Below, in pieces: positions 1,719 through 11,243 of a stretch of 44,709 nt of DNA. This stretch comes from an uncultured Microcaldota archaeon (GTDB taxonomy: Archaea > Micrarchaeota > Micrarchaeia > Anstonellales > Bilamarchaeaceae). The stretch covers positions 1 through 44,709 of the forward strand of contig CAIKOA010000035.1 in the NCBI GenBank assembly GCA_903828955.1, in the 5' to 3' direction. The position numbers and the translations under genes are program-made. The first letter of the stretch is position 1; every line of letters starts with the position of its first letter. The notes beneath the pieces are model-generated. The model ran no database searches. It was not told the DNA's origin and worked only from the letters and a program-made list of their open reading frames with translations.

Positions 1719-1734
1719 TGGGCCCGCTGAGATT
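1719..1734 (-). other. Left attachment site (tRNA-Ile 3' remnant)
   Basis: The sixteen bases are identical to the 3' end of tRNA-Ile: three T-loop bases, the T-stem strand, the acceptor strand and the discriminator A. The rest of the tRNA is absent here. It reads in frame within the integrase C-terminal frame as GPAEI. Confidence 0.85.
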
Positions 1735-2013
1735 AGCCTCCTGGTTTCCGGTTCACAGTTTCCAGTTTCCCGAAGTGAAAAGAACGGGTTTCCCGCATCG
1801 GGTCCCCAGCCTCCGGCACGCTGTGAAGAAAACTCGGCCAGGGCGGCAAAGGAAATCTCCAAATCCCTTAGCAGGAGGTGGCCCGAGCTAAAGGAGGAGC
1901 TGGAGTATTTTGGCCGCTACCTTACCAAGTGGAACCTGGTAAAAGCCATAACCGTCCTCTCGGAAGCCCGCAAAAGGCGCTTCCTGCGTTCAAGAAGGCC
2001 TAAATACGGCTCA
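1735..2013 (+). pseudogene. Integrase N-terminal/core-binding region, in frame upstream of ATG 2014, no start codon
   Basis: The integrase frame stays open from 1708 to the stop at 2668-2670, but contains no ATG, GTG or TTG before 2014. Residues read from about 1834 onward (SARAAKEISKSLSRRWPELK, then LEYFGRYLTKWNLVKAITVL) are the helical SAM-like core-binding part of a tyrosine recombinase. In the integrated state this segment has no start; it is completed only when the element circularises and the N-terminal piece at 10896-11069 is joined to it. Confidence 0.7.
1743..1753 (+). repeat. GGTTTCCGGTT 11-mer next to the left att core
   Basis: An exact 11-mer starting 9 bp inside the left att core. 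The same word occurs inverted at 11016-11026, 28 bp inside the right core, and again at 10707-10717. Placement on both sides of the att cores in opposite orientation suits integrase arm-type binding sites, which is an inference. Confidence 0.4.
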
Positions 2014-2670
2014 ATGAACAAAGCCTTCACTGAGGACGAACTGGAGCGATTTTTTGGGGTTATAGAGGACCCCAAGGCGCACCTGCTCTTTTCCTTTCAA
2101 GCGATTATCGGCCTTCGCATTGGGGAGGCGGTGAGGGTCAATGTCAAGGATATCAACCTGAAAACGCGCGAGCTGCGCATCTTTACCGAGAAAAGCGGCA
2201 AGACGGACTATCTCCTGATTCCAGAGAAGTTCTTTGAGGTGGTCCTGCGATATATTTCCGGCTATGAGAAGGAGATTGCCTCTGCACGCGGCTCCCTGTT
2301 TTTTTCCTTTACGCATGGGTGGAGGGGCGCGGAAACCGCGCCTTACATAGCCACCCAGACCGCGAGGGTTGCATTTCATCAATACCTGAAGAAGGCGAAG
2401 CTGGACGAGATTTATGGATACAGCGCCGGGCCTAATCCCAAGCCCCTCTTCCGCCTCACTCCGCATTCGCTACGGCACTATGCGATTTCCAACTTCTGCA
2501 GGAAAAACGGCGGGAACGTGGCACTCTCTTCCAAGTTTGCGCGGCATACGAATTTGCAGACGACTATGATTTACATCCACACGGAGAAGGAAGAGCTTTA
2601 TGCGAGCATAGAGAGGGCGCAGGACACCAAGATCTTGGAGAGGGTGAAAAGAATGCAGGAGGGGATTTGA
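2014..2670 (+). CDS. Tyrosine recombinase/integrase, catalytic domain (C-terminal part of split integrase)
   Basis: The 218-aa catalytic domain carries all active-site residues of the tyrosine recombinase (XerC/D, SSV integrase) family: Arg35 in GLRIGEA, a lysine in TEKSGKTDY (about 60-63), His151 and Arg154 in HSLRHYAIS, His178 in KFARHTNLQ and the nucleophile Tyr187 in MIYIH. It would cut and rejoin DNA at the tRNA-Ile att site. ATG 2014 is the first possible start in this piece, and the frame upstream encodes the core-binding domain. From 2014 alone a catalytic fragment could be made. The intact enzyme requires circularisation. A fragment of the uvrB 5' end lies 63 bp behind the stop. Confidence 0.88.
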   Translation: MNKAFTEDELERFFGVIEDPKAHLLFSFQAIIGLRIGEAVRVNVKDINLKTRELRIFTEKSGKTDYLLIPEKFFEVVLRYISGYEKEIASARGSLFFSFTHGWRGAETAPYIATQTARVAFHQYLKKAKLDEIYGYSAGPNPKPLFRLTPHSLRHYAISNFCRKNGGNVALSSKFARHTNLQTTMIYIHTEKEELYASIERAQDTKILERVKRMQEGI

Positions 2671-2732
2671 GCCATAGCAAAGCTTCTCCACCCCAGAAGT
2701 ATTTTCGTTGCGGAAGAGTTTAATTAGTTATT

Positions 2733-2834
2733 GCTGAGGCTGGTCGCCTGCGGGCTTGTATGCGGACTCCAACTCGTATTGCATATAGTTTCACTTATGT
2801 GAAAAGGAGAATATAAAGGATTTGGGAGTGTGAG
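2733..2834 (-). repeat. uvrB promoter + first 16 codons, truncated copy 1
   Basis: Read on the minus strand, this is a close copy of 18750-18845: the TATA-box region, the palindrome between TATA box and start, ATG, and codons MQYELESAYKPAGDQP. The copy stops being homologous after codon 16. It points leftward, antisense to the integrase 3' end. The palindrome (2789-2804, TTTCAC-ATAA-GTGAAA on the minus strand) differs from that of uvrB by a symmetrical pair of changes that preserves the dyad. Confidence 0.85.
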
Positions 2835-2905
2835 CTTTGCTAACAAACTCTATGAAAAAGACAACTTTATGAGCAAAGGGCGAGATTATTAGCAGAAGTG
2901 AAAAT

Positions 2906-3130
2906 ATGAAAGCATACCCTAATTTTAAAAATGCTGATGAGGAATCTAATTCCATGGGGCTATACGGGAATGGAAGAGCTTGGCACGGTGTTGAGCAAAG
3001 TAAGAAATGGAAATGGTTTCCTATCCTTCTTAAATGGACTTTTTTGGTTTATTCTATAAGAGTAGGAGAACCTATACAAGGAATTGTTGGATTGGTTGGT
3101 GCTTGGCTTGTCATCAGATATATCCTATAG
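2906..3130 (+). CDS. Small predicted membrane protein, unrecognised
   Basis: 74 aa, ATG start. Residues 1-37 are polar (GLYGNGRAWHGVEQ). Residues 38-74 hold one or two hydrophobic segments (FPILLKWTFLVYSI and IQGIVGLVGAWLVIRYIL), so it is probably a short membrane protein with a polar N-terminus. It overlaps the start region of the next gene, suggesting translational coupling. A+T-rich codon use unlike the chromosome flanks. No family recognised. Confidence 0.55.
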   Translation: MKAYPNFKNADEESNSMGLYGNGRAWHGVEQSKKWKWFPILLKWTFLVYSIRVGEPIQGIVGLVGAWLVIRYIL

Positions 3131-3779
3131 AGAAAAACTAACAATCCAAAACATATTCAAGTTTATTGTTGTTTTGGTGGTAATTGTCGTAATACTTGTT
3201 TTTCTTAAATTGTCTATAGATTCACAAAAATCGGATTGGGCAGGGTATACATTTGGTCTTGTTTTTGCTTTGTTAGTATTAGCATTTAAGGATAGTAGAG
3301 ATATGCTCATGAAAATTCTTTCTAGTACTACGAAAACCGCTATCCCAAAAAATGCGACTCCGCATAATGAGCGGACAGAGAAAACAGAATCAGATAGTCA
3401 TAATGTAACAGCAACTGTCGAAAATAGGAAAACACACTTGGTTATTGGTTTGACTCCCATACACCGGGAAGAGCATAATCTCAAATTCGGTATTTTGTTT
3501 AATCGAGAGATGAAGTTGGAGGAAGTGCCAGAAATAAAGTTCAGTGATGAGCACCTTACTCAGAAAGGAGTGGTATCATTTTCTCTCCCGTATGAGTTTG
3601 TGGAATACAAACGACGGAGATATGTTCCGGTAAGGTTAGATAAACCTGCTTCAGTACAAGTCCGGGATGCGTTGGAATTCTGGGTCAGTAAAGATAAAAA
3701 TCCTAAACTGAGAGTTATTTCGATAATACAGCTACAACCAGATGGAAATCACACAGAGATTCCGATACAAAAAAGGTAA
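3084..3779 (+). CDS. Membrane-anchored protein with soluble C-terminal domain, unrecognised
   Basis: The frame starts with TTG at 3084, inside the preceding gene; other non-ATG starts (TTG 3087, GTG 3099) are possible, so the start is uncertain. Residues about 24-47 (FIVVLVVIVVILVFLKLSI) and 55-70 form two membrane segments. Residues 80-115 are a polar Ser/Thr/Lys-rich linker. Residues 115-231 form a beta-rich soluble domain. The 50-bp inverted-repeat copy begins 2 bp after the stop. Topology predicts the domain on the cytoplasmic side if the N-terminus is inside. Function unknown. Confidence 0.6.
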   Translation: MLDWLVLGLSSDISYREKLTIQNIFKFIVVLVVIVVILVFLKLSIDSQKSDWAGYTFGLVFALLVLAFKDSRDMLMKILSSTTKTAIPKNATPHNERTEKTESDSHNVTATVENRKTHLVIGLTPIHREEHNLKFGILFNREMKLEEVPEIKFSDEHLTQKGVVSFSLPYEFVEYKRRRYVPVRLDKPASVQVRDALEFWVSKDKNPKLRVISIIQLQPDGNHTEIPIQKR

Positions 3780-3780
3780 A

Positions 3781-3832
3781 AAATAAAAGCGTTCGCTAAA
3801 ACCTGAAGTTTGTGCGCGGGCTATCTGTGGGC
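3781..3832. repeat. Right copy of the 50-bp inverted repeat
   Basis: Reverse complement of 91-141 with about four mismatches. It begins 2 bp after the stop of the preceding gene and runs directly into the second uvrB fragment. On the minus strand the uvrB reading frame continues through it for about 14 codons to a TAG. Confidence 0.7.
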
Positions 3833-3914
3833 TTGCATGCGAACTCCAACTCGTACTGCATAGAATTCAATTATGTGAAAAGGAGAATATAAAGGATTTG
3901 GGGGTGTGGGATCC
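3828..3914 (-). repeat. uvrB promoter + first ~11 codons, truncated copy 2
   Basis: Minus-strand reading gives the uvrB promoter block (GGATTTGG complement, the AATATAAAGGA complement with the TATA box), ATG, and MQYELEFACKP before switching into the 50-bp repeat. One half of the promoter palindrome is preserved (GTGAAA); the other is degraded. Same orientation as copy 1, so the two copies bracket 2835-3827 as direct repeats. Confidence 0.82.
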
Positions 3915-4001
3915 CACTGCTAGTAAGCGAAAGGCAATGGCGGATAGCTCACGTGGGCAATAATAAACATTACGAGAGAATAGCTAGTCCGAGTTGATTT
4001 G

Positions 4002-4640
4002 ATGAATGAAAGGCCTAAACTGCCTACTTCGCGAGATCTTTGGGTGGAGTTGCAACCTGGGGAGTCAGTATATGTCGATGAGAAGGTACCGCCTTTAGAT
4101 CCTAAGATGGCGCGTTTTCGACAAATACGCGGAAACGTTGTTGCATATGCAATAAACATCGAATATGCACTAGATTCTTTGCTTGTTGAGCTCATAGATC
4201 CTCTAAAAACTTTGAATTCGGTCATTGATGATCCCAACATGAAAAAAGCTGTGGAAGACTTAAAACTGATAGTTAATGCTGCGTGGCTCAAAAGCCGAGA
4301 TACGAATATGAGATTGAAAATAGAGATATTAAATAAAACGGCGAAGTACCACCCAATATTAAACAGCGACGAAATAGATTCTTTAGCAAGTGACTTGCAT
4401 AAGGTACATAATGTACGAAATGATTTTGCCCATCGGATGATGGTCATAAAACAAAGGAAGACTAAGGATGGATTTGATTGGGATGTTTATCTTGACTATG
4501 GAGACAAAAAATTGTTGCTTGACACATCTTATTTTAGGGGAATAGATGAGCTATATACCCGTTCGTTGAAACGTTTAGAAGACTTAACTAGAAAGTTAAA
4601 TGGAGAAACCGAAACGGAAGAGCGAAAAAATAGCGCATAA
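4002..4640 (+). CDS. HEPN-like protein with R-x4-H motif
   Basis: ATG 4002 preferred over the TTG one codon upstream. 212 aa, almost entirely alpha-helical. Residues 139-144 (RNDFAH) form the R-x4-6-H motif seen at the active site of HEPN-fold ribonucleases, which occur in toxin-antitoxin, Abi and CRISPR systems; the preceding helix (EIDSLASDLHKVHNV) has the expected polar pattern. If genuine it would cut RNA as a dimer in the cytoplasm. The family call rests on the motif and helicity only, since the motif is short. The next gene starts 29 nt downstream on the same strand and also has a HEPN/Abi-like C-terminus, so the two may form one module. Confidence 0.55.
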   Translation: MNERPKLPTSRDLWVELQPGESVYVDEKVPPLDPKMARFRQIRGNVVAYAINIEYALDSLLVELIDPLKTLNSVIDDPNMKKAVEDLKLIVNAAWLKSRDTNMRLKIEILNKTAKYHPILNSDEIDSLASDLHKVHNVRNDFAHRMMVIKQRKTKDGFDWDVYLDYGDKKLLLDTSYFRGIDELYTRSLKRLEDLTRKLNGETETEERKNSA

Positions 4641-4669
4641 CATTTAATATTTGCTAAGTCCAAATAGAT

Positions 4670-5476
4670 ATGTGTTCAGATATGGATAAAAGAATTGTTT
4701 TTGAAGCTGCGAATATTATCTGCTTGGTATATACAAAACCGAGTATGATAAATCATTTTGATGCTTTTGGGGTTGAAAAAGCGATTATTGATGAATGTTC
4801 GTCTTTTGCAAAGAAGAGGTTTGCTGAAACGGTTATGAATAGGTTGTATATGTCTACTAAAGAATCCGATCAGCGAATCGTTCATAGGATTGTTGAAGAT
4901 CTCAGCTGTAATCCGGATACCGCAAAATATAACCTTGGGTGGGATTGTGACGCATATAAAAATAAACTAGAAAAATTAAGACAGTTACTAATAGAAGACG
5001 GCTACAAAAATGAAAACGGAAAACTAATTAAAGGAACAGTGTATTTGCCGGATATAGAACAAAAGTATGAAGCCATAATTAGAAATCTGAAAGATTATGG
5101 GAGAGACGATCTAGCTATTAATTTTAGCGATGCAATAAAAAACTATTCGCAAGGCAGTCCTTTATCACTACCCGGCATAAGAAGCGTAATTGAGAATTTA
5201 CACAAGCACATACTGGATAAGAATGGCAAAATTCCTTCTAATGCAAGGGAGGATATCAAAAAACTTAGAGATATTGGGGTTTTGAAGACCATGGATCCAA
5301 AGCGCCCTGAAATAGAAACTGATTTCGCATACAATCTCTACCAGATGTTGAGTAATTGGTCTGTGCACGGAGCACGAACACCTAGTCTCGAACACGAGTA
5401 TCTATTCCAAATTTCGATTTTATATTTAGATTTTCTTATTAAAAGAATAAAACAAAGTGGAGTTAAAACCTCATAA
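4670..5476 (+). CDS. Abi/HEPN-like helical protein
   Basis: 268 aa, no membrane segment. ATG 4670; a second ATG four codons on (MDKRIVFEAAN) is possible. Residues 225-260 (LYQMLSNWSVHGARTPSLEH and the following helix) resemble the C-terminal helical block of abortive-infection/AbiJ-type HEPN proteins, where a Ser-Asn-x-x-Ser-x-His stretch precedes a long hydrophobic helix. The N-terminal 200 residues are charged helices without a family I recognise. Strongly A+T-rich. Same strand as and 29 nt behind the R-x4-H protein, suggesting co-expression. A defence or addiction role is inferred from this resemblance and the element context. Confidence 0.5.
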   Translation: MCSDMDKRIVFEAANIICLVYTKPSMINHFDAFGVEKAIIDECSSFAKKRFAETVMNRLYMSTKESDQRIVHRIVEDLSCNPDTAKYNLGWDCDAYKNKLEKLRQLLIEDGYKNENGKLIKGTVYLPDIEQKYEAIIRNLKDYGRDDLAINFSDAIKNYSQGSPLSLPGIRSVIENLHKHILDKNGKIPSNAREDIKKLRDIGVLKTMDPKRPEIETDFAYNLYQMLSNWSVHGARTPSLEHEYLFQISILYLDFLIKRIKQSGVKTS

Positions 5477-5531
5477 AGATCCATTCAATTGATGTGGGTT
5501 AGCGACTGGATGAAGAAACCAACATTCGGGT

Positions 5532-6167
5532 CTATTTTTTGCTTCGCATAATCTCAAACGCTGCATATACTGCTAAAAGCAGAACGAGCGTCAATAATAA
5601 AGAAACCGCGGCAAGCATACTGGTAACAGAAGGAGCAATCAACCAGTCTTTTAGAATATTGTAAATCTCTGCTGAAGAAAGAACGCACGTAAAAAAAGCA
5701 ACCGCGACAGTAAGGCGTTCCAATGCAAGAGAAGAACGGTCTGTTAGCCCAGGCGCGCTTTTTGAAGAAGTCAACTTCGAATAGAGCAATTTCATCTCGC
5801 TGAACTTATTAGGGTTATCCACTTTCTCTTTCAGAGAATGTTTCAGAAAAATAGTTTTATACCAGCCCACAAATGCCTCTTCAAAGAAGGCGGAAGCAGT
5901 GCGATCTACGAATTTGTGATTGACAAGATATGCAAAAAGCTCCAGCGTATTGAAGAACCTGGGGTCGATCTTCTTCTTCTGGGGCTCGCTCTTATTTTTA
6001 TCATACTCGGCTTCGATTTCTTGAAGTTTATTGAACGTCGTCATCAATATTTGAAGATTCCGGCTCTTCGCATCGTTACGAAGCGCTCCGTAGCTATACC
6101 ACAATGTCACCAGTACTCCGACAAAAGTGAAGAAGAGTATGCCAAACTCGATAACACTGTCAATCAT
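5532..6167 (-). CDS. Three-helix membrane protein, unrecognised (DUF4760-like layout)
   Basis: 211 aa. Residues 5-27 (VIEFGILFFTFVGVLVTLWY) are one membrane segment. Residues 30-145 are cytoplasmic and charged (NDAKSRNLQILMTTFNKLQE, then a Lys/Glu-rich stretch). Residues 150-175 and 180-205 form two more segments. This N-terminal-TM plus helical-domain layout recalls DUF4760-type phage/plasmid proteins, but the match is not firm. Its ATG overlaps the stop of the 50-aa protein upstream (ATGA), so the two are translationally coupled. Confidence 0.6.
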   Translation of the reverse strand: MIDSVIEFGILFFTFVGVLVTLWYSYGALRNDAKSRNLQILMTTFNKLQEIEAEYDKNKSEPQKKKIDPRFFNTLELFAYLVNHKFVDRTASAFFEEAFVGWYKTIFLKHSLKEKVDNPNKFSEMKLLYSKLTSSKSAPGLTDRSSLALERLTVAVAFFTCVLSSAEIYNILKDWLIAPSVTSMLAAVSLLLTLVLLLAVYAAFEIMRSKK

Positions 6168-6316
6168 TTACTTCCCTTATCTTTAGGTTTTCTTGCCTCT
6201 TCCATTGGCGTGCCATCATATGACTTTTTCATCTCTCTGATCCCCGAGAGAGTCTCATGACTCTTACGCCCTACCTCTTGTTTTCCAGTGGGTATCTTTT
6301 TTGTTTCGTTAGCCAT
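6164..6316 (-). CDS. 50-aa basic hydrophilic protein coupled to the membrane protein
   Basis: Minus-strand frame MANETKKIPTGKQEVGRKSH... ending in PKDKGSK, 50 aa, Lys-rich and without hydrophobic segments. An upstream in-frame ATG gives MITMANET (6325). The stop TGA overlaps the ATG of the next gene by ATGA, which strongly suggests a real, translated, coupled gene. No family recognised; a small partner or DNA/RNA-binding peptide is possible. Confidence 0.55.
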   Translation of the reverse strand: MANETKKIPTGKQEVGRKSHETLSGIREMKKSYDGTPMEEARKPKDKGSK

Positions 6317-6406
6317 GGTTATCATCTCTGCCCATACTGGGCGTTTTCTAAATGTGGCTAAGGGATATTAATATTATGCTTGGGGTAGATTTTCAGTGTT
6401 TTTTCC

Positions 6407-6600
6407 AAAACCGATTTATACCCCCCCACCAATATTCGCACTGGCCTCAATCACTCTTTTTGGCGGCGCCGGGGAAATCGGCGGAAACGTGGTGCTAATC
6501 GAAGACAAAGACGCTAAGATCTACCTGGACTTCTGGCAGCACTTCACCTTCAAAGGAGACTTATTCTACGACCGGCTGCAGCCAAGGAACGCACGACCTA
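6407..6600 (+). pseudogene. RNase J-like gene fragment: promoter + about 50 codons, start lost
   Basis: The translated stretch ITLFGGAGEIGGNVVLIEDK followed by LDF and RLQPR is clearly homologous to the N-terminus of the beta-CASP nuclease encoded at 15744-17114. Homology continues upstream into the promoter (AAACC-ATTTATAC). The start ATG is changed to CTG. Homology ends shortly before 6605, directly at the 3' end of the TPR gene. Because amino acids are only moderately similar, the source may be a paralogue rather than the copy in this window. No catalytic histidines are present. Confidence 0.75.
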
Positions 6601-6605
6601 TAAGC

Positions 6606-7226
6606 CTATTTTAAGGGTGAGCCCATTAATACGCTCTGCCACCCTTGTGGCAATACGATGTTGGGTTCAATTTCCCTAGCTTTTTCGTAGTCGCTTCTTG
6701 CCTTGGTTATATTCTTCATTTTTTGATATATGAAACCTCTCTCTATGTAAGAATCGGCCATTTTTGGCTGTAATTTTATTGCTTTTGAAAGATCAGCTAT
6801 ACCTTTATTGAAATCTCCGAGGTCTCCGTAGGTCCTTCCCCTAAGATATAGCAAATATATTGAAGTAGGATTAATGGAGAGCCCTTTGCTACAGTATTCA
6901 ATAGCTTTTGCATATTCTTTATTTCCGGCCTTGCCTAGTGCAAGAGCTCGATACATAAAATCATCTTTGGAGCTCACCTCAAAAAAAATCCAAGACTTGT
7001 ATTTGGCATAATGCTGTTCGTGTAGCTTCTTAAGGTCTCTAACGCAAGTTTTCTCGTCTAATTCTTTCCATGAATTACTATTAAAGCTCTCTTCATTGCA
7101 AGTAGATCTTAGAAAAGAATTTGCTCTTGCATATAGTTCTTTCATTCTTTCGTATTCTTCTGCACTCGGTTCTTGCTTGTTCTTTGGGCCACCAAAGAAC
7201 TTACTTAAAAAATCCATAAAATCCAT
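6606..7226 (-). CDS. Tetratricopeptide-repeat protein
   Basis: 206 aa. The N-terminal 90 residues are charged helices. Residues about 95-200 hold three consecutive TPR units; readable signatures are LGKAGNKEYAKAIEYCSKGL, the unit around YLRGRTYGDLGDFNKGIADL, and YIERGFIYQKMKNITKARSD. TPRs mediate protein-protein contacts. No signal peptide. It follows the HtrA-like gene on the same strand after 12 nt, so the two likely form an operon and the TPR protein may act with the protease. The 3' end abuts the RNase J-like gene fragment. Confidence 0.82.
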   Translation of the reverse strand: MDFMDFLSKFFGGPKNKQEPSAEEYERMKELYARANSFLRSTCNEESFNSNSWKELDEKTCVRDLKKLHEQHYAKYKSWIFFEVSSKDDFMYRALALGKAGNKEYAKAIEYCSKGLSINPTSIYLLYLRGRTYGDLGDFNKGIADLSKAIKLQPKMADSYIERGFIYQKMKNITKARSDYEKAREIEPNIVLPQGWQSVLMGSPLK

Positions 7227-7238
7227 TTCAACGCCTCA

Positions 7239-9164
7239 TCAGTAATGGCATTGCCCATCCCACCCGTAAGTAGTTCCTTCTGGGCAGCATATTCCTTCAG
7301 TAGCGTATTCATATCCCGGAGCGCAGCAAGTTCCGTCATCATATGCGCTATATCCAGGAGGACAGCATACTCCATCTCCGTAATAATCCCAGCCAGTTCT
7401 ACAGCAGTTGCCGTCTGCATAGCCCTCATACCCTGGATTACAAGAGAAACACGTTCCTGCTGATGGACCCGTAGTTGCACAGTTAGGATACTCGCTATCA
7501 CAGCCACACTCTTGGCAATAGTCAATCAGGTCTCCATTAGAGCAATAAAGGCCAACAAAGGAAGAACAGTAGCCATAGGGCGTTCCATCTACGCATTTTG
7601 GGGCGGGAACAAAACTACTCCAACTGTCATAATTAGACAATCTCTGCAGTTCCTTCAATTCAATTGCAAAGTTAAGACCTTCAGTATCCGTGAGTATGAA
7701 TGTGTTTATACCAATCAGAGTTCCAGAACTCTTCAGGAAGAGTCCCCCGCCGCTATTACCCGGATTTATCGCGGCGTCAGTCTGTATCGTGGTATATTTG
7801 TAATTGGAATCAGTGTATTCCTCCATAAAGTTGGAGATTATCCCATCAGATACACTGCCCTGAAGCCCAAGGGGGGAACCCAAAGCGAGAACCTCTTGCC
7901 CTTTGCTGTATGGTTCAGAATAATTAAAGGAAACCAACTTCCCATAAGTTCCAGTTACGTATATTACTGCGAAATCCATATCGTTAGGAGCAACTCTGAT
8001 TGCATCTGCATGAGCGCTTTTCCCATCATCAGTTTTGATTGATAAATCATTAACACTGTCCGCACCCTCAACAACGTGGCGGTTGGTCAGAATAATTGTT
8101 TTGCCCCCTTCCTGAGCAATTACCACTCCAGACCCACTGGCAAAGGAATGTTCTACATAGACGACACTCTGCTGAAGGTCAGCCACCAATTCTGTTGTTT
8201 GCTCTTCTTTGGTTATGCAAGTTCCTTTATGGCATACTAATCCTGAGGAACAACCACAAACGGAGCAATCAAAAACGAGCATTTTGCTATCGTTACAGAG
8301 ACTCCCAATCGATTTTGTAGAGCAATCTCCTACGAGCGTCCCGTCTTCACATGTTCTGGGAAGCACATTTATCTCAAAAGTTTGGCTTTCTGATGGGCTG
8401 TAAGAAGAATCTCCTCCAAACATCACCTTGACGTTTTTATTACCCGCTTCACTGTATACTATCTGGATTACTGCCCTGCCATTCGCATCCGTGCGGGCCA
8501 TCTCGTTTAATGAGTTTGAAACAACCAATTGTTTATTACCCAAAACACTGCCGTCTATTGAGTTCTTTAATGTGACCGTTATATTCGCCCCTTCTTTAGC
8601 AATAACCTCACTTGGGACGGTTACCTGCAACGTAGTTGGAATAAATATTGTTGAGACTGAACTGCTCGAAGCAGGCTTATGGAATGAATCTCCATTGTAA
8701 GCTATCGTTAAGTTGATTGATTTTCCACACCACTCTGAAGGGACCTTCTTTTCATATGAAATGCGTCCATTCTGATCAGTAGAAAGTTTTTCAAACAATG
8801 AATCATTCACGTAGATATTCACTGGTTGGTTTGCTAGAGGGTTACCGTTCGCATCATTCAGTTCGATTGAGTATGTGAACGCTTCGTTGCATGCACTTGC
8901 AGGAAAACTAAGGTCAGCCACCAGGTTTGTTGGGGCCTGAAAGTATCCAGATAGGAACAAATATCCTAATGCAATGGCTCCGATTATGACCACGAGAGCA
9001 ATAATCGCCGGCAACACAACAGCGATAGCGAGTGGAACGCTTGGGGCAGATACGCTAATTGCCCTGGTGGGGGCGGTTGCCAAACTTGCACCGCACTCGG
9101 GGCAGAATTTTCCTGCCTTTACTTTTTTACCGCACTTTGGACAGACTTGGGTATCCTTTTTCAT
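7239..9164 (-). CDS. Membrane-anchored zinc-ribbon / Ig-like / HtrA-type serine protease
   Basis: 641 aa multi-domain protein. Residues 8-25 are a zinc ribbon (CPKCGKKVKAGKFCPECG) predicted cytoplasmic. Residues about 43-72 are a membrane segment. Residues 80-270 are two Ig-like (invasin/Big-type) beta domains (ANGNPLANQPVNIYV; DGSVLGNKQLVVSN). A Cys-rich linker follows. The S1C (DegP/HtrA) protease domain then shows the full triad: His in TNRHVVEGA, Asp in NDMDFAVIYV, Ser in NPGNSGGGLF. No PDZ domain follows; the last 120 residues are Cys-rich and EGF-like. It probably sits in the membrane with an external protease, acting on envelope or foreign proteins. Unusual domain order; likely operon with the TPR gene. 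Confidence 0.85.
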   Translation of the reverse strand: MKKDTQVCPKCGKKVKAGKFCPECGASLATAPTRAISVSAPSVPLAIAVVLPAIIALVVIIGAIALGYLFLSGYFQAPTNLVADLSFPASACNEAFTYSIELNDANGNPLANQPVNIYVNDSLFEKLSTDQNGRISYEKKVPSEWCGKSINLTIAYNGDSFHKPASSSSVSTIFIPTTLQVTVPSEVIAKEGANITVTLKNSIDGSVLGNKQLVVSNSLNEMARTDANGRAVIQIVYSEAGNKNVKVMFGGDSSYSPSESQTFEINVLPRTCEDGTLVGDCSTKSIGSLCNDSKMLVFDCSVCGCSSGLVCHKGTCITKEEQTTELVADLQQSVVYVEHSFASGSGVVIAQEGGKTIILTNRHVVEGADSVNDLSIKTDDGKSAHADAIRVAPNDMDFAVIYVTGTYGKLVSFNYSEPYSKGQEVLALGSPLGLQGSVSDGIISNFMEEYTDSNYKYTTIQTDAAINPGNSGGGLFLKSSGTLIGINTFILTDTEGLNFAIELKELQRLSNYDSWSSFVPAPKCVDGTPYGYCSSFVGLYCSNGDLIDYCQECGCDSEYPNCATTGPSAGTCFSCNPGYEGYADGNCCRTGWDYYGDGVCCPPGYSAYDDGTCCAPGYEYATEGICCPEGTTYGWDGQCHY

Positions 9165-9205
9165 GCTTTTACTAAATGTGCAAGAAATTTAAGGCTAACC
9201 ATTGA

Positions 9206-9868
9206 ATGTTGCATATGAATCGAACACTCTTCGTCCTTCTCATCATGGGCGTGCTTCTTTTTTCTGGATGTTGTAGTTATCTTACCCCAGAACAGTCTAC
9301 TGGCGGGTATACACAACAACCAGCCGAAACTAAACCTATGATTACTATTTCCTTCTGCAATTCACTCACTACCCAGGAAATTCAATCAACTTGTCTTCAG
9401 AACTGGGCCGGAAAGATTCAAGATGACCAAAGATTGCGGGATTACCTTACTTACTGGGATACCGTACTCAAAGATGCGAAAGACCTTGACGCGATAGCTC
9501 AGGATTTAGAGGCTTCTGGAAATGCATGGAATGCCGCGGACACAACTGAAGAAAGAACTTCTGCTTATAGGAGTTATAGTGTATCTGCACAGGAATACGC
9601 TACTAAGTTGGAAACTACTACGACCCACTTAACCAATTTTCAGACTTTCATTAGTCAAAATAAAGCCTACTTTGATTCTCAAGGGGTCAATAGCGTGCAA
9701 CAAATAAATTTTATAATAACCACGAAAGGAGACCTCAAATCAACAACTTATGGGATTCAATCCAACTTAGAGTTGATGGGGCAATCCTTAGCATTAGAGG
9801 GTCAGGCGAAGCAACAGAACGACGCACTGATACAAACGTTGCTTCAGTTGGCGGTTGGATTGATATAA
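9206..9868 (+). CDS. Lipoprotein, helical, unrecognised
   Basis: 220 aa. Hydrophobic signal peptide (LFVLLIMGVLLFSGC) ending in a lipobox-like LFSGC, so Cys at about residue 22 is the probable lipidation site; the ATG at 9206 or the ATG three codons on both fit. A Thr/Gln/Pro-rich linker follows, then a mostly helical domain (residues 45-215) with an early Cys pair (SFCNSLTTQEIQSTCLQNW). Divergent from the HtrA-like gene with 41 bp between starts, so they share a promoter region. No family recognised. Confidence 0.65.
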   Translation: MLHMNRTLFVLLIMGVLLFSGCCSYLTPEQSTGGYTQQPAETKPMITISFCNSLTTQEIQSTCLQNWAGKIQDDQRLRDYLTYWDTVLKDAKDLDAIAQDLEASGNAWNAADTTEERTSAYRSYSVSAQEYATKLETTTTHLTNFQTFISQNKAYFDSQGVNSVQQINFIITTKGDLKSTTYGIQSNLELMGQSLALEGQAKQQNDALIQTLLQLAVGLI

Positions 9869-10193
9869 TATTACTAGCCGCTCATTCTCGCCTTGCGGCG
9901 TGCTCGCATTAATCGTTTTCCCCTCGCTCCAGCGAAAAGCACTTAATGCTCAAGCCCCGGCGGGGGTTCGGTGCTGGCGCACCGAAAGCAATAATGTGCA
10001 TTTTCGCCTCCGCTCAGGGCCGGCTTGCGCCTAAACGAATAATAGCTCGCACCGAACGAGCGGCCTATTTCTACTACTGGCGGGGAAGTTTGCTCGCTTC
10101 CCTCCTTTCAGCCCTTTAAATGAAATTTGCGGGCTTCGGAGTGAAGCTCGCTTAAAACTTCCCCTACGGGAGTAGCCGGGGAAGGGAAAGGTG
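9869..10193 (+). other. Structured non-coding leader candidate with alternative stems
   Basis: No credible gene in 325 bp, but it is GC-rich and full of inverted repeats. Visible stems: 9877-9883 with 10058-10064 (long-range GCCGCTC/GAGCGGC); 9968-9974 with 9979-9985; CCCC/GGGG at 9955-9965; 10129-10137 with 10143-10151; and 10082-10090 with 10156-10164 (GGGGAAGTT/AACTTCCCC). The strand 10158-10164 can pair instead with GGGGAAG 10178-10184, right before the ribosome binding site of the 28-aa frame. Such mutually exclusive stems resemble a riboswitch or attenuator. No known RNA class recognised. Confidence 0.45.
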
Positions 10194-10280
10194 ATGAAAA
10201 TGGAAACAGAAGAGAAACCAAAATGGGATGAAAGGAAACGGGCGGACGAAGACTGGGTCCGCGATGTCGGAGGCTGGTAA
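10194..10280 (+). CDS. 28-aa peptide upstream of the four-helix-bundle gene
   Basis: ATG 10194 follows GGAAAGGTG, a good archaeal ribosome binding site. It encodes MKMETEEKPKWDERKRADED plus WVRDVGGW, then TAA 2 bp before the next ATG. Highly charged with two Trp near the end. It may be a leader peptide or a small partner of the following protein; tight spacing implies coupled translation. Too short for a family call. Confidence 0.45.
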   Translation: MKMETEEKPKWDERKRADEDWVRDVGGW

Positions 10281-10282
10281 AT

Positions 10283-10645
10283 ATGCAGAACTTCAAAAAT
10301 CTGAAAGTGTATGAAGAGGCGTTCCGCCTCTCAAAGGACATTTTCGAGTTCATGGAGGACAAGAAGATGAGCATGAGGGCCAAGGAGCAGCTCCTTGCCT
10401 CCGCGTCTTCCATCTGCGCCAACCTTGCGGAAATGGGCGCCTTCGATTCCAGGAAAGCCCAGAGGCAGAAGCTGGTCACCTGCATAGGGGAAGCCAACGA
10501 AACCGAGTTCTGGCTGGATTTATGCAATTCCCTGAAAATCATACCGCAAAGGGAACACCTGAACTTTATGACTTCCCTTGTGCGCGTCCGCTCAATGCTC
10601 TGCAAGCTGAAAAGCGCAATAGAAGAAGGTGATGAAAAAGACTGA
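10283..10645 (+). CDS. Four-helix-bundle protein (23S rRNA IVP/S23 family)
   Basis: 120 aa. The opening NFKNLKVYEEAFRLSKDIFE, then SICANLAEM and ANETEFWLDLCNSL, is the signature of the IVP/TIGR02436 four-helix-bundle family. These were first found encoded in 23S rRNA intervening sequences; relatives act as accessory nucleic-acid-binding proteins (e.g. Avd of diversity-generating retroelements). No reverse transcriptase is present here. It sits inside the integrated element, behind the structured region and the 28-aa peptide. Base composition is closer to the chromosome than to the rest of the element. Function in this context unknown. Confidence 0.88.
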   Translation: MQNFKNLKVYEEAFRLSKDIFEFMEDKKMSMRAKEQLLASASSICANLAEMGAFDSRKAQRQKLVTCIGEANETEFWLDLCNSLKIIPQREHLNFMTSLVRVRSMLCKLKSAIEEGDEKD

Positions 10646-10656
10646 ATGAACTTATA

Positions 10657-10785
10657 CCACTGGCAAAACGCAGGCTGACCAAGCCCGCTTCCGGTTTCCC
10701 GTATACGGTTTCCGGTTGCGCCCGGTCGGTCGAAACCTGACACGCCAAATCTGCTCCGGCGTGCCTAGCGGAGCTTTGCCAGTGG
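10657..10785. repeat. Inverted repeat with 107-bp interior near the right end of the element
   Basis: The arms CCACTGGCAAA (10657-10667) and TTTGCCAGTGG (10775-10785) are perfect 11-bp complements. The interior holds GGTTTCCGGTT (10707-10717) and a near-copy of it, and no gene is seen. May be a recombination or regulatory site of the element. Confidence 0.45.
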
Positions 10786-10895
10786 AAACATACCTCCAAA
10801 ACGCATAAAAAGCATAGAAAAGAAAACGCAAAAGGCCAATGAAGGTATACAAACTTTCGTTGCCTTTGTTTGCCAAGGAAATGAGGTGAAACATA

Positions 10896-11072
10896 ATGGA
10901 AAACGACCAAGAGTTCACTTTTCCACAGGCCCGATGCCTATGGAAAGTGAACTCAAAGAAAACTAAGGCAAAAAAGGAAGCAGCAGAAACTAATCCTGTA
11001 GACGTAGAAAATGGGAACCGGAAACCCGGAACCGCAAACAAATTTAGTGAGATTGGGCCCGCTGAGATTTGA
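10896..11072 (+). CDS. N-terminal part of the split integrase, intN
   Basis: 58-aa frame beginning MENDQEFTFPQARCLWKVNS and ending ...FSEIGPAEI at TGA 11070-11072. GAGGTGA at 10884-10890 is a good ribosome binding site 5 nt before ATG. Its last five codons are the att core, which overlaps the tRNA-Ile 3' end on the other strand. In the circular element the same core leads in frame into 1735, so this piece would supply the start and first 58 residues of the integrase. Partitioned SSV-type intN pieces are of similar size and position. Its sequence alone has no domain I recognise; the call rests on frame continuity. A 14-bp imperfect hairpin (10911-10925/10941-10954) lies inside the gene. Confidence 0.72.
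   Translation: MENDQEFTFPQARCLWKVNSKKTKAKKEAAETNPVDVENGNRKPGTANKFSEIGPAEI
10911..10954. repeat. Long hairpin inside intN
   Basis: GAGTTCACTTTTCCA and TGGAAAGTGAACTC are complementary over 14 bp with one extra T, separated by 15 bp. It lies 100 bp from the right att core and 20 bp after the intN start. Could bind a protein or mask translation. Confidence 0.5.
11016..11026 (-). repeat. GGTTTCCGGTT 11-mer (inverted) next to the right att core
   Basis: Exact inverted copy of 1743-1753; 28 bp inside the right att core. Candidate arm-type integrase site. Confidence 0.4.
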
Positions 11073-11128
11073 ACTCAGGACCTTTCGATTATCAGTCGAA
11101 CGCTCCAGCCTGGCTGAGCTACGGGCCC
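11054..11128 (-). tRNA. tRNA-Ile(GAT)
   Basis: A complete 75-nt cloverleaf on the minus strand. The acceptor GGGCCCG/CGGGCCC, D stem GCTC/GAGC, anticodon stem TTCGA/TCGAA with loop CTGATAA (anticodon GAT), and T stem CTGAG/CTCAG with loop TTCAAAT are all perfect; discriminator A. No encoded CCA and no intron. Its last 16 nt form the right att site of the element, so the tRNA stays functional after integration. The original downstream sequence now lies at 1718 and leftward. Confidence 0.96.
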
Positions 11129-11243
11129 AAATAAGTGGATTTTCTTTTAGATTGATAACTCTTTTAAACCTCTCGTAATTTTTAAAAGGACTATGAGGGG
11201 TTGCTGGGGGTGAAGCCACTTAGGGGGCGCTCCCCTGAGGGGC

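Follow-up and report, generated by a model that had tools for sequence, protein, structure and literature searches.

What is the 9.3-kb stretch of DNA that separates two copies of a tRNA-Ile 3' end in this archaeal contig, and what became of the enzyme that placed it there? The window, that is the whole stretch of 44,709 nucleotides that was analysed, is contig C35 of a 35-contig micrarchaeon genome (1.22 Mb, 96% complete). An earlier note had proposed an SSV-type integrative element in a DPANN-like archaeon, whose integrase is split by its own att site. The host call holds: when GTDB genomes were scanned with the integrase alignment, the matches were 14 contigs of Micrarchaeota and a weak one from a bacterium, placing the host in Micrarchaeota. 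From the evidence below, we are confident that 1719-11069 is an integrated micrarchaeal mobile element using a self-splitting integrase. The features at its two ends are as follows.

1719..1734, no strand assigned: att core at the far end, a remnant of the tRNA-Ile 3' end and exact 16-bp repeat of 11054-11069
1720..2670, + strand: IntC, the C-terminal half of a tyrosine recombinase, without a start codon (PF00589, 1.7e-17)
10896..11072, + strand: IntN, a 58-aa ORF with an ATG start (reading frame; homologue in genome G027, E 9e-7)
11054..11069, no strand assigned: att core within the intact tRNA gene, exact 16-bp repeat of 1719-1734
11053..11129, - strand: intact tRNA-Ile(GAT), the target gene (ARAGORN; Rfam RF00005, 68.7 bits)

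ARAGORN, Rfam and a repeat search together bear out the direct repeats of the tRNA-Ile 3' end, exact over 16 bp at 1719-1734 and 11054-11069. Their sequence, TGGGCCCGCTGAGATT, is the antisense of the final 16 nt of tRNA-Ile(GAT) (c11129-11053), and no other stretch of the window matches the IntC start region exactly over a greater length; by chance, any one 16-mer would turn up about 2e-5 times in 44.7 kb, both strands counted. The mobile DNA is thus integrated in the tRNA-Ile(GAT) gene over the span 1719-11069, with the intact tRNA at one end and a tRNA fragment at the other, as in Type I integration. Except close to its two ends, its G+C (0.35-0.45) lies below that of the flanks (about 0.49).

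The catalytic part of the recombinase follows the left repeat directly. The IntC frame (1720-2670, 316 aa) contains no in-frame ATG, GTG or TTG before 2014 and carries the active-site R, K, HxxRH and Y residues. At the other end, IntN is preceded by a ribosome-binding site (GAGGTGA) and runs into the right repeat, reading the core in the same frame as IntC, such that joining the halves gives 53+316 = 369 aa, the size predicted for the circularised form; on recheck, every figure of the earlier note was correct. IntN has no Pfam match, hence no PF07935 N-terminal domain, which is present in SSV1. The recombination site therefore lies inside the integrase gene and divides it into int(N) and int(C), as in Type I elements, whereas a pNOB8-type (Type II) integrase stays intact after integration, and here no in-frame start precedes 2014. 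A Type II reading would have the protein translated from the internal ATG at 2014, with the 58-aa ORF there by chance, and the Pfam catalytic match does begin only at 2026. We regard it as highly improbable, because conservation reaches IntC residue 1 in relatives (residues 1-316 are 57-67% identical to other Micrarchaeota), homologues of the 58-aa ORF occur at the same place, and a start at 2014 would drop a conserved region preceding the catalytic domain.

Self-splitting by integration into tRNA-Ile is upheld by close relatives sharing the layout (G018 and G027), by 26 frame-matched loci elsewhere in the phylum, described below, and by element-free sites in G020 and G021. Of the 43 genomes in the family of the window, 16 match the integrase, the window's own counted, and several align from IntC residue 1. 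In G018, of the same genus, the element spans 9.7 kb, has a 22-bp repeat and occupies the same tRNA-Ile, there intron-bearing, again by the metallophosphoesterase gene; its IntN (MPEFKNFRAQTPRYL...GNRKPKTG...) is homologous to that of the window, and both of its halves read the core as MGPMRF. G027 repeats the layout, its core being read as GPAEI by IntN and as GPMEI by IntC. Core frames thus vary between elements and agree within each of the three. One more IVP-IntN-tRNA end, with the IVP gene described below, is found in G019:C32. In three related loci (L183, L030 and L026), the start of IntN (RAQ(T/N)PRYL; AGGGCCCAAACTCCGAGATATTTGAACTC) looks like the antisense of a tRNA 3' end in decay, and could be the fossil att of an earlier target.

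G020 and G021, also of the same genus, have the tRNA-Ile by the metallophosphoesterase gene, with the core present once and the integrase missing from the site. In the window, 9.7 kb separate the left flank gene (547-1335) from the tRNA; for its homologue in G021, the distance is 2.0 kb. The element-free site looked for in related genomes was thus found at the level of synteny, not as base-level proof, since the neighbouring protein is only about 63-71% identical to that of the window. A nucleotide-level empty site was sought in genus g94 (G241 against G237), which yielded att remnants only and no clean empty site. In G241:C18 (L211), remnants of the tRNA-Gln 3' end are spaced by about 1.3 kb, with no integrase; these are likely scars of earlier elements.

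Such an element might be a dead remnant, split long ago and now immobile, a reading that competes on present function and is compatible with the same origin. IntN homologues in G005 and G042 are frame-broken, their halves no longer in one frame, as expected for a disrupted gene in decay; we therefore dropped both from the support as paired elements, and as some copies have decayed, the window copy may be decayed too. Two scans of viral contigs gave no match and no free form of the element, which also fits this reading, and among phages and plasmids no relative covered the enzyme; nor did an int gene in its joined, intact form turn up. On the other hand, both window halves are open, in frame and complete in catalytic residues, and G027 holds tandem elements at one att, so integration recurs. 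We consider a dead remnant rather unlikely, and an element using a self-splitting integrase remains our reading. The tandem insertion itself (L026, G027:C37, 7193-17130) comprises a complete element followed by the IntC of a second, which starts right after IntN and the core, its att being in the third frame (WARGDLNSGPDAC).

To which enzyme family does this integrase belong? The earlier note had called it SSV-type, and this stands for the strategy, given the layout and the frame agreement in relatives; it fails for the SSV sequence family. PF00589 was detected in 72 of 72 Micrarchaeota enzymes tested and PF16795 in none of the 72, while the SSV1 positive control matched PF16795 at 1.5e-61 and also PF07935. 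The proposed alignment to SSV- and pNOB8-type integrases was run by profile: the Micrarchaeota integrase profile matched pNOB8 with 88% probability and SSV1 with 0.4%. The nearest solved sequences and folds are the XerA structures 5hxy and 4a8e (profile search, Foldseek), although the Foldseek match counts as support only, the AlphaFold model being weak (pLDDT 62). XerA (NF040815) is likewise the best NCBIfam model, at 70.1 bits against a curated cut-off of 220 bits that the enzyme does not reach. Compared with archaeal XerA, the Micrarchaeota enzyme is att-split, tRNA-targeted and element-borne, besides lying well under this cut-off.

In architecture, the element resembles SSV1 (Type I, suicidal), in which att lies in the 5' part of int, antisense to the tRNA, IntN adjoins the rebuilt tRNA and the far end holds IntC (PMC8371274); on the int strand, the SSV1 att reads CGGACCCGCCGGGATTTGAACCCGG... 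SSV1 differs in having PF16795, PF07935 and a 44-bp att, against PF00589, a 16-bp core, inverted arms, an IVP gene and no viral genes in the window element. Indeed, an att of 40-50 bp is usual for SSV and pTN3 (PMC8371274), whereas those of the window and G018 measure 16 and 22 bp. The suicidal pTN3 and pT26-2 elements of Thermococcales share an att within int and a tRNA target but belong to the PF16795 family (PMC8371274), and the window att is antisense. The pNOB8 type shares PF00589 and a detectable profile similarity, but its gene is not disrupted when integration takes place (PMC8371274). Cryptic integrated elements of Thaumarchaeota likewise combine an integrase with variable cargo, and that of NitEve-E3 is split (PMC6563490), although the latter is described as SSV1-like (PMC6563490).

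Suicidal integrases have been described as the PF16795 families SSV, pTN3 and pT26-2, probably arising in a single event, with no mention of DPANN (PMC8371274). From sequence comparison, we propose that the Micrarchaeota family represents a second, independent origin, which is likely rather than proven and which would contradict this single-origin model. Alternatively, all may descend from one suicidal ancestor, with sequences diverged past recognition: the strategy is shared, both are tyrosine recombinases, and the antisense geometry of the window's clade is that of SSV1. The Pfam split (0/72 for PF16795, 72/72 for PF00589), a profile far closer to the non-suicidal pNOB8 (88%) than to SSV1 (0.4%), and nearest sequences and folds in XerA all argue against common descent, which we judge improbable. 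The independent origin that we favour would matter because suicidal integrases have so far been viewed as a single invention of archaea, bound to PF16795; in the present case, the strategy occurs at scale in a tiny-genome phylum and in another recombinase family, with none reported there in the literature searched. Comparing origins would then make selection for enzymes that destroy their own gene testable. Our searches for Micrarchaeota or DPANN tyrosine recombinases, integrases and suicidal integrases returned no account of the split type; an XerD-family integrase has been recorded in the island of a micrarchaeon (Mia14), where splitting is not mentioned (PMC5498576).

Across the phylum, 101 of 301 Micrarchaeota genomes match the integrase alignment at 1e-30 or better, and the window element is one clade of a phylum-wide family, not an isolated oddity. 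Three genomes (G237, G238 and G240) each contain seven or more integrases of the family in about 1.1-1.3 Mb. In the majority of 59 loci taken, the frame of the integrase starts in, or crosses, an intact tRNA gene in sense orientation, the targets being tRNAs for Ala, Glu, Gln, Leu, Ser, Val, Pro, Arg, Lys and Asn. This sense layout is that of pTN3, whose int(C) is positioned such that its transcription could start from the tRNA promoter (PMC8371274). At 26 sense-type loci with a downstream repeat of at least 19 bp (spans 1.9-13.6 kb; repeats 19-76 bp), an ATG-started open frame preceded the remote repeat in the IntC frame in all 26 cases and in the other two frames in 2 of 52. The IntC frame was the longest open one at 25 of 26 (binomial p 2e-11, which is indicative, as the loci are not all independent, e.g. 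L157/L162, and some upstream stretches are partly tRNA sequence). Short N-termini such as MKLENDAK and MARNIGVK recur among these loci. The simplest reading of these frames is that the 26 would be suicidal integrases too, with IntC adjoining the tRNA.

By contrast to most others, the att is antisense to the tRNA in the window and eight other rows (L032 was put in this group on a short, ambiguous core). These nine rows form one clade (SH-aLRT 95) that adjoins sense-type rows, so that a single orientation switch is enough. In the tree with SSV1 and pNOB8 outgroups, the outgroup branches reach 4-10 changes per column, and we therefore do not trust the root or the direction of the switch. Together, the two types show how the frame and strand of an att within a gene can shift. 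L034 (G021:C37) and L035 (G019:C24), which form a close sister branch of the integrase, have in-frame ATGs and no recognisable tRNA att, and might be relatives that are not split.

Inverted arms lie on either side of the core, within the coding sequence.

1739..1762, + strand: C-side inverted-repeat arm, GTTTCCGGTT type, within the int coding sequence, 88% complementary to 11007-11030
11007..11030, + strand: N-side inverted-repeat arm, AACCGGAAACCCG, within IntN, inverted repeat with 1739-1762
10694..10717, + strand: further arm-like repeat (inverted repeat I2), between the IVP gene and IntN

When the circle is joined in silico, the AACCGGAAACCCG arm falls about 30 bp before the core and the GTTTCCGGTT arm about 10 bp after it. 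The arms are kept in the window, G018 and G027; those of the window are complementary at 18 of 20 positions, against 0 of 200 shuffles. By analogy with lambda arm sites, they are perhaps integrase-binding sites. Their translations are GNRKP and VSGxxFPVS, and IntC residues 1-47 are modelled by AlphaFold with low confidence, and we infer that this stretch is a linker with a sequence dictated by DNA sites. The reading that combines a XerA-like independent origin, spread through the phylum over about ten tRNA types, a sense/antisense att switch in the window's clade and a linker that is translated attP is, on balance, the probable one.

How, then, would the element work? In the free circle, a single gene would encode the 369-aa XerA-like recombinase, with attP inside its 5' part as a 16-bp core between inverted GGTTTCCGG-type arms. 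This enzyme would recombine attP with the tRNA-Ile 3' end; the tRNA would regain its 3' end from the copy on the element, and int would be divided into IntN, which converges with the tRNA, and a startless IntC at the far end. As integration cuts the int gene, the element would switch its own enzyme off. By analogy with SSV2 and pTN3 (PMC8371274), excision would need a related intact integrase provided in trans by another element.

The remaining genes of the element are listed below.

2906..3130, + strand: 74-aa ORF, no family in family searches
3084..3779, + strand: 231-aa ORF with a hydrophobic N-terminus, no family (ORF, Pfam search)
3999..4640, + strand: 213-aa ORF, only weak Csm6/CARF-HEPN matches (E 0.0025-0.0035)
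4670..5476, + strand: 268-aa ORF, no family in family searches
5532..6167, - strand: 211-aa ORF with hydrophobic segments, no clear family (Pfam search)
6606..7226, - strand: TPR-repeat protein, 206 aa (PF00515, 2.4e-21)
7239..9164, - strand: 641-aa protein with zinc ribbon, hydrophobic segment, Ig-like domains and HtrA/trypsin-like protease (PF13365, 1.9e-24; TIGR02037 at 1.9e-37, under the model's cut-off)
9206..9868, + strand: putative lipoprotein, 220 aa, no family (from sequence)
10283..10645, + strand: four-helix-bundle protein (23S_rRNA_IVP; PF05635, 5.1e-18)

No replication or virion gene was recognised among them, and the whole therefore looks like an integrative element with cargo rather than a provirus. 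Likewise, no replication or virion gene is shared across 31 elements, the integrase alone being common to all.

In the window, the IVP gene precedes IntN by about 250 bp, and it has the same position in G018, G027 and G005. It is single-copy and within the element in G000, G018, G027 and G005, missing from G020 and G022, both without the integrase, present in four copies in G019 and not found in G028. Its protein is 85-91% identical in L026, L029 and L030, a conservation exceeding that of the integrase. As a tentative guess, this four-helix-bundle protein might be a helper in recombination.

Several related elements carry genes for Eco57I-type or other DNA methylases, one together with a type II restriction enzyme; with such restriction-modification genes aboard, the family may also help defence genes to travel between Micrarchaeota. 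In the window, the two adjacent cargo proteins at 3999-5476, the first with weak Csm6/HEPN-like matches, might be encoded by a pair of defence genes. Direct repeats of about 85 bp (2748-2832 and 3825-3908; 86-95% identical, 1.08 kb apart) bracket two cargo ORFs, each repeat preceding a gene group. Finally, a GAAGTTTGTGCGCGGGCTATCTGYGGGC sequence within the element (3797-3830) has an inverted copy in the left flank (84-121).
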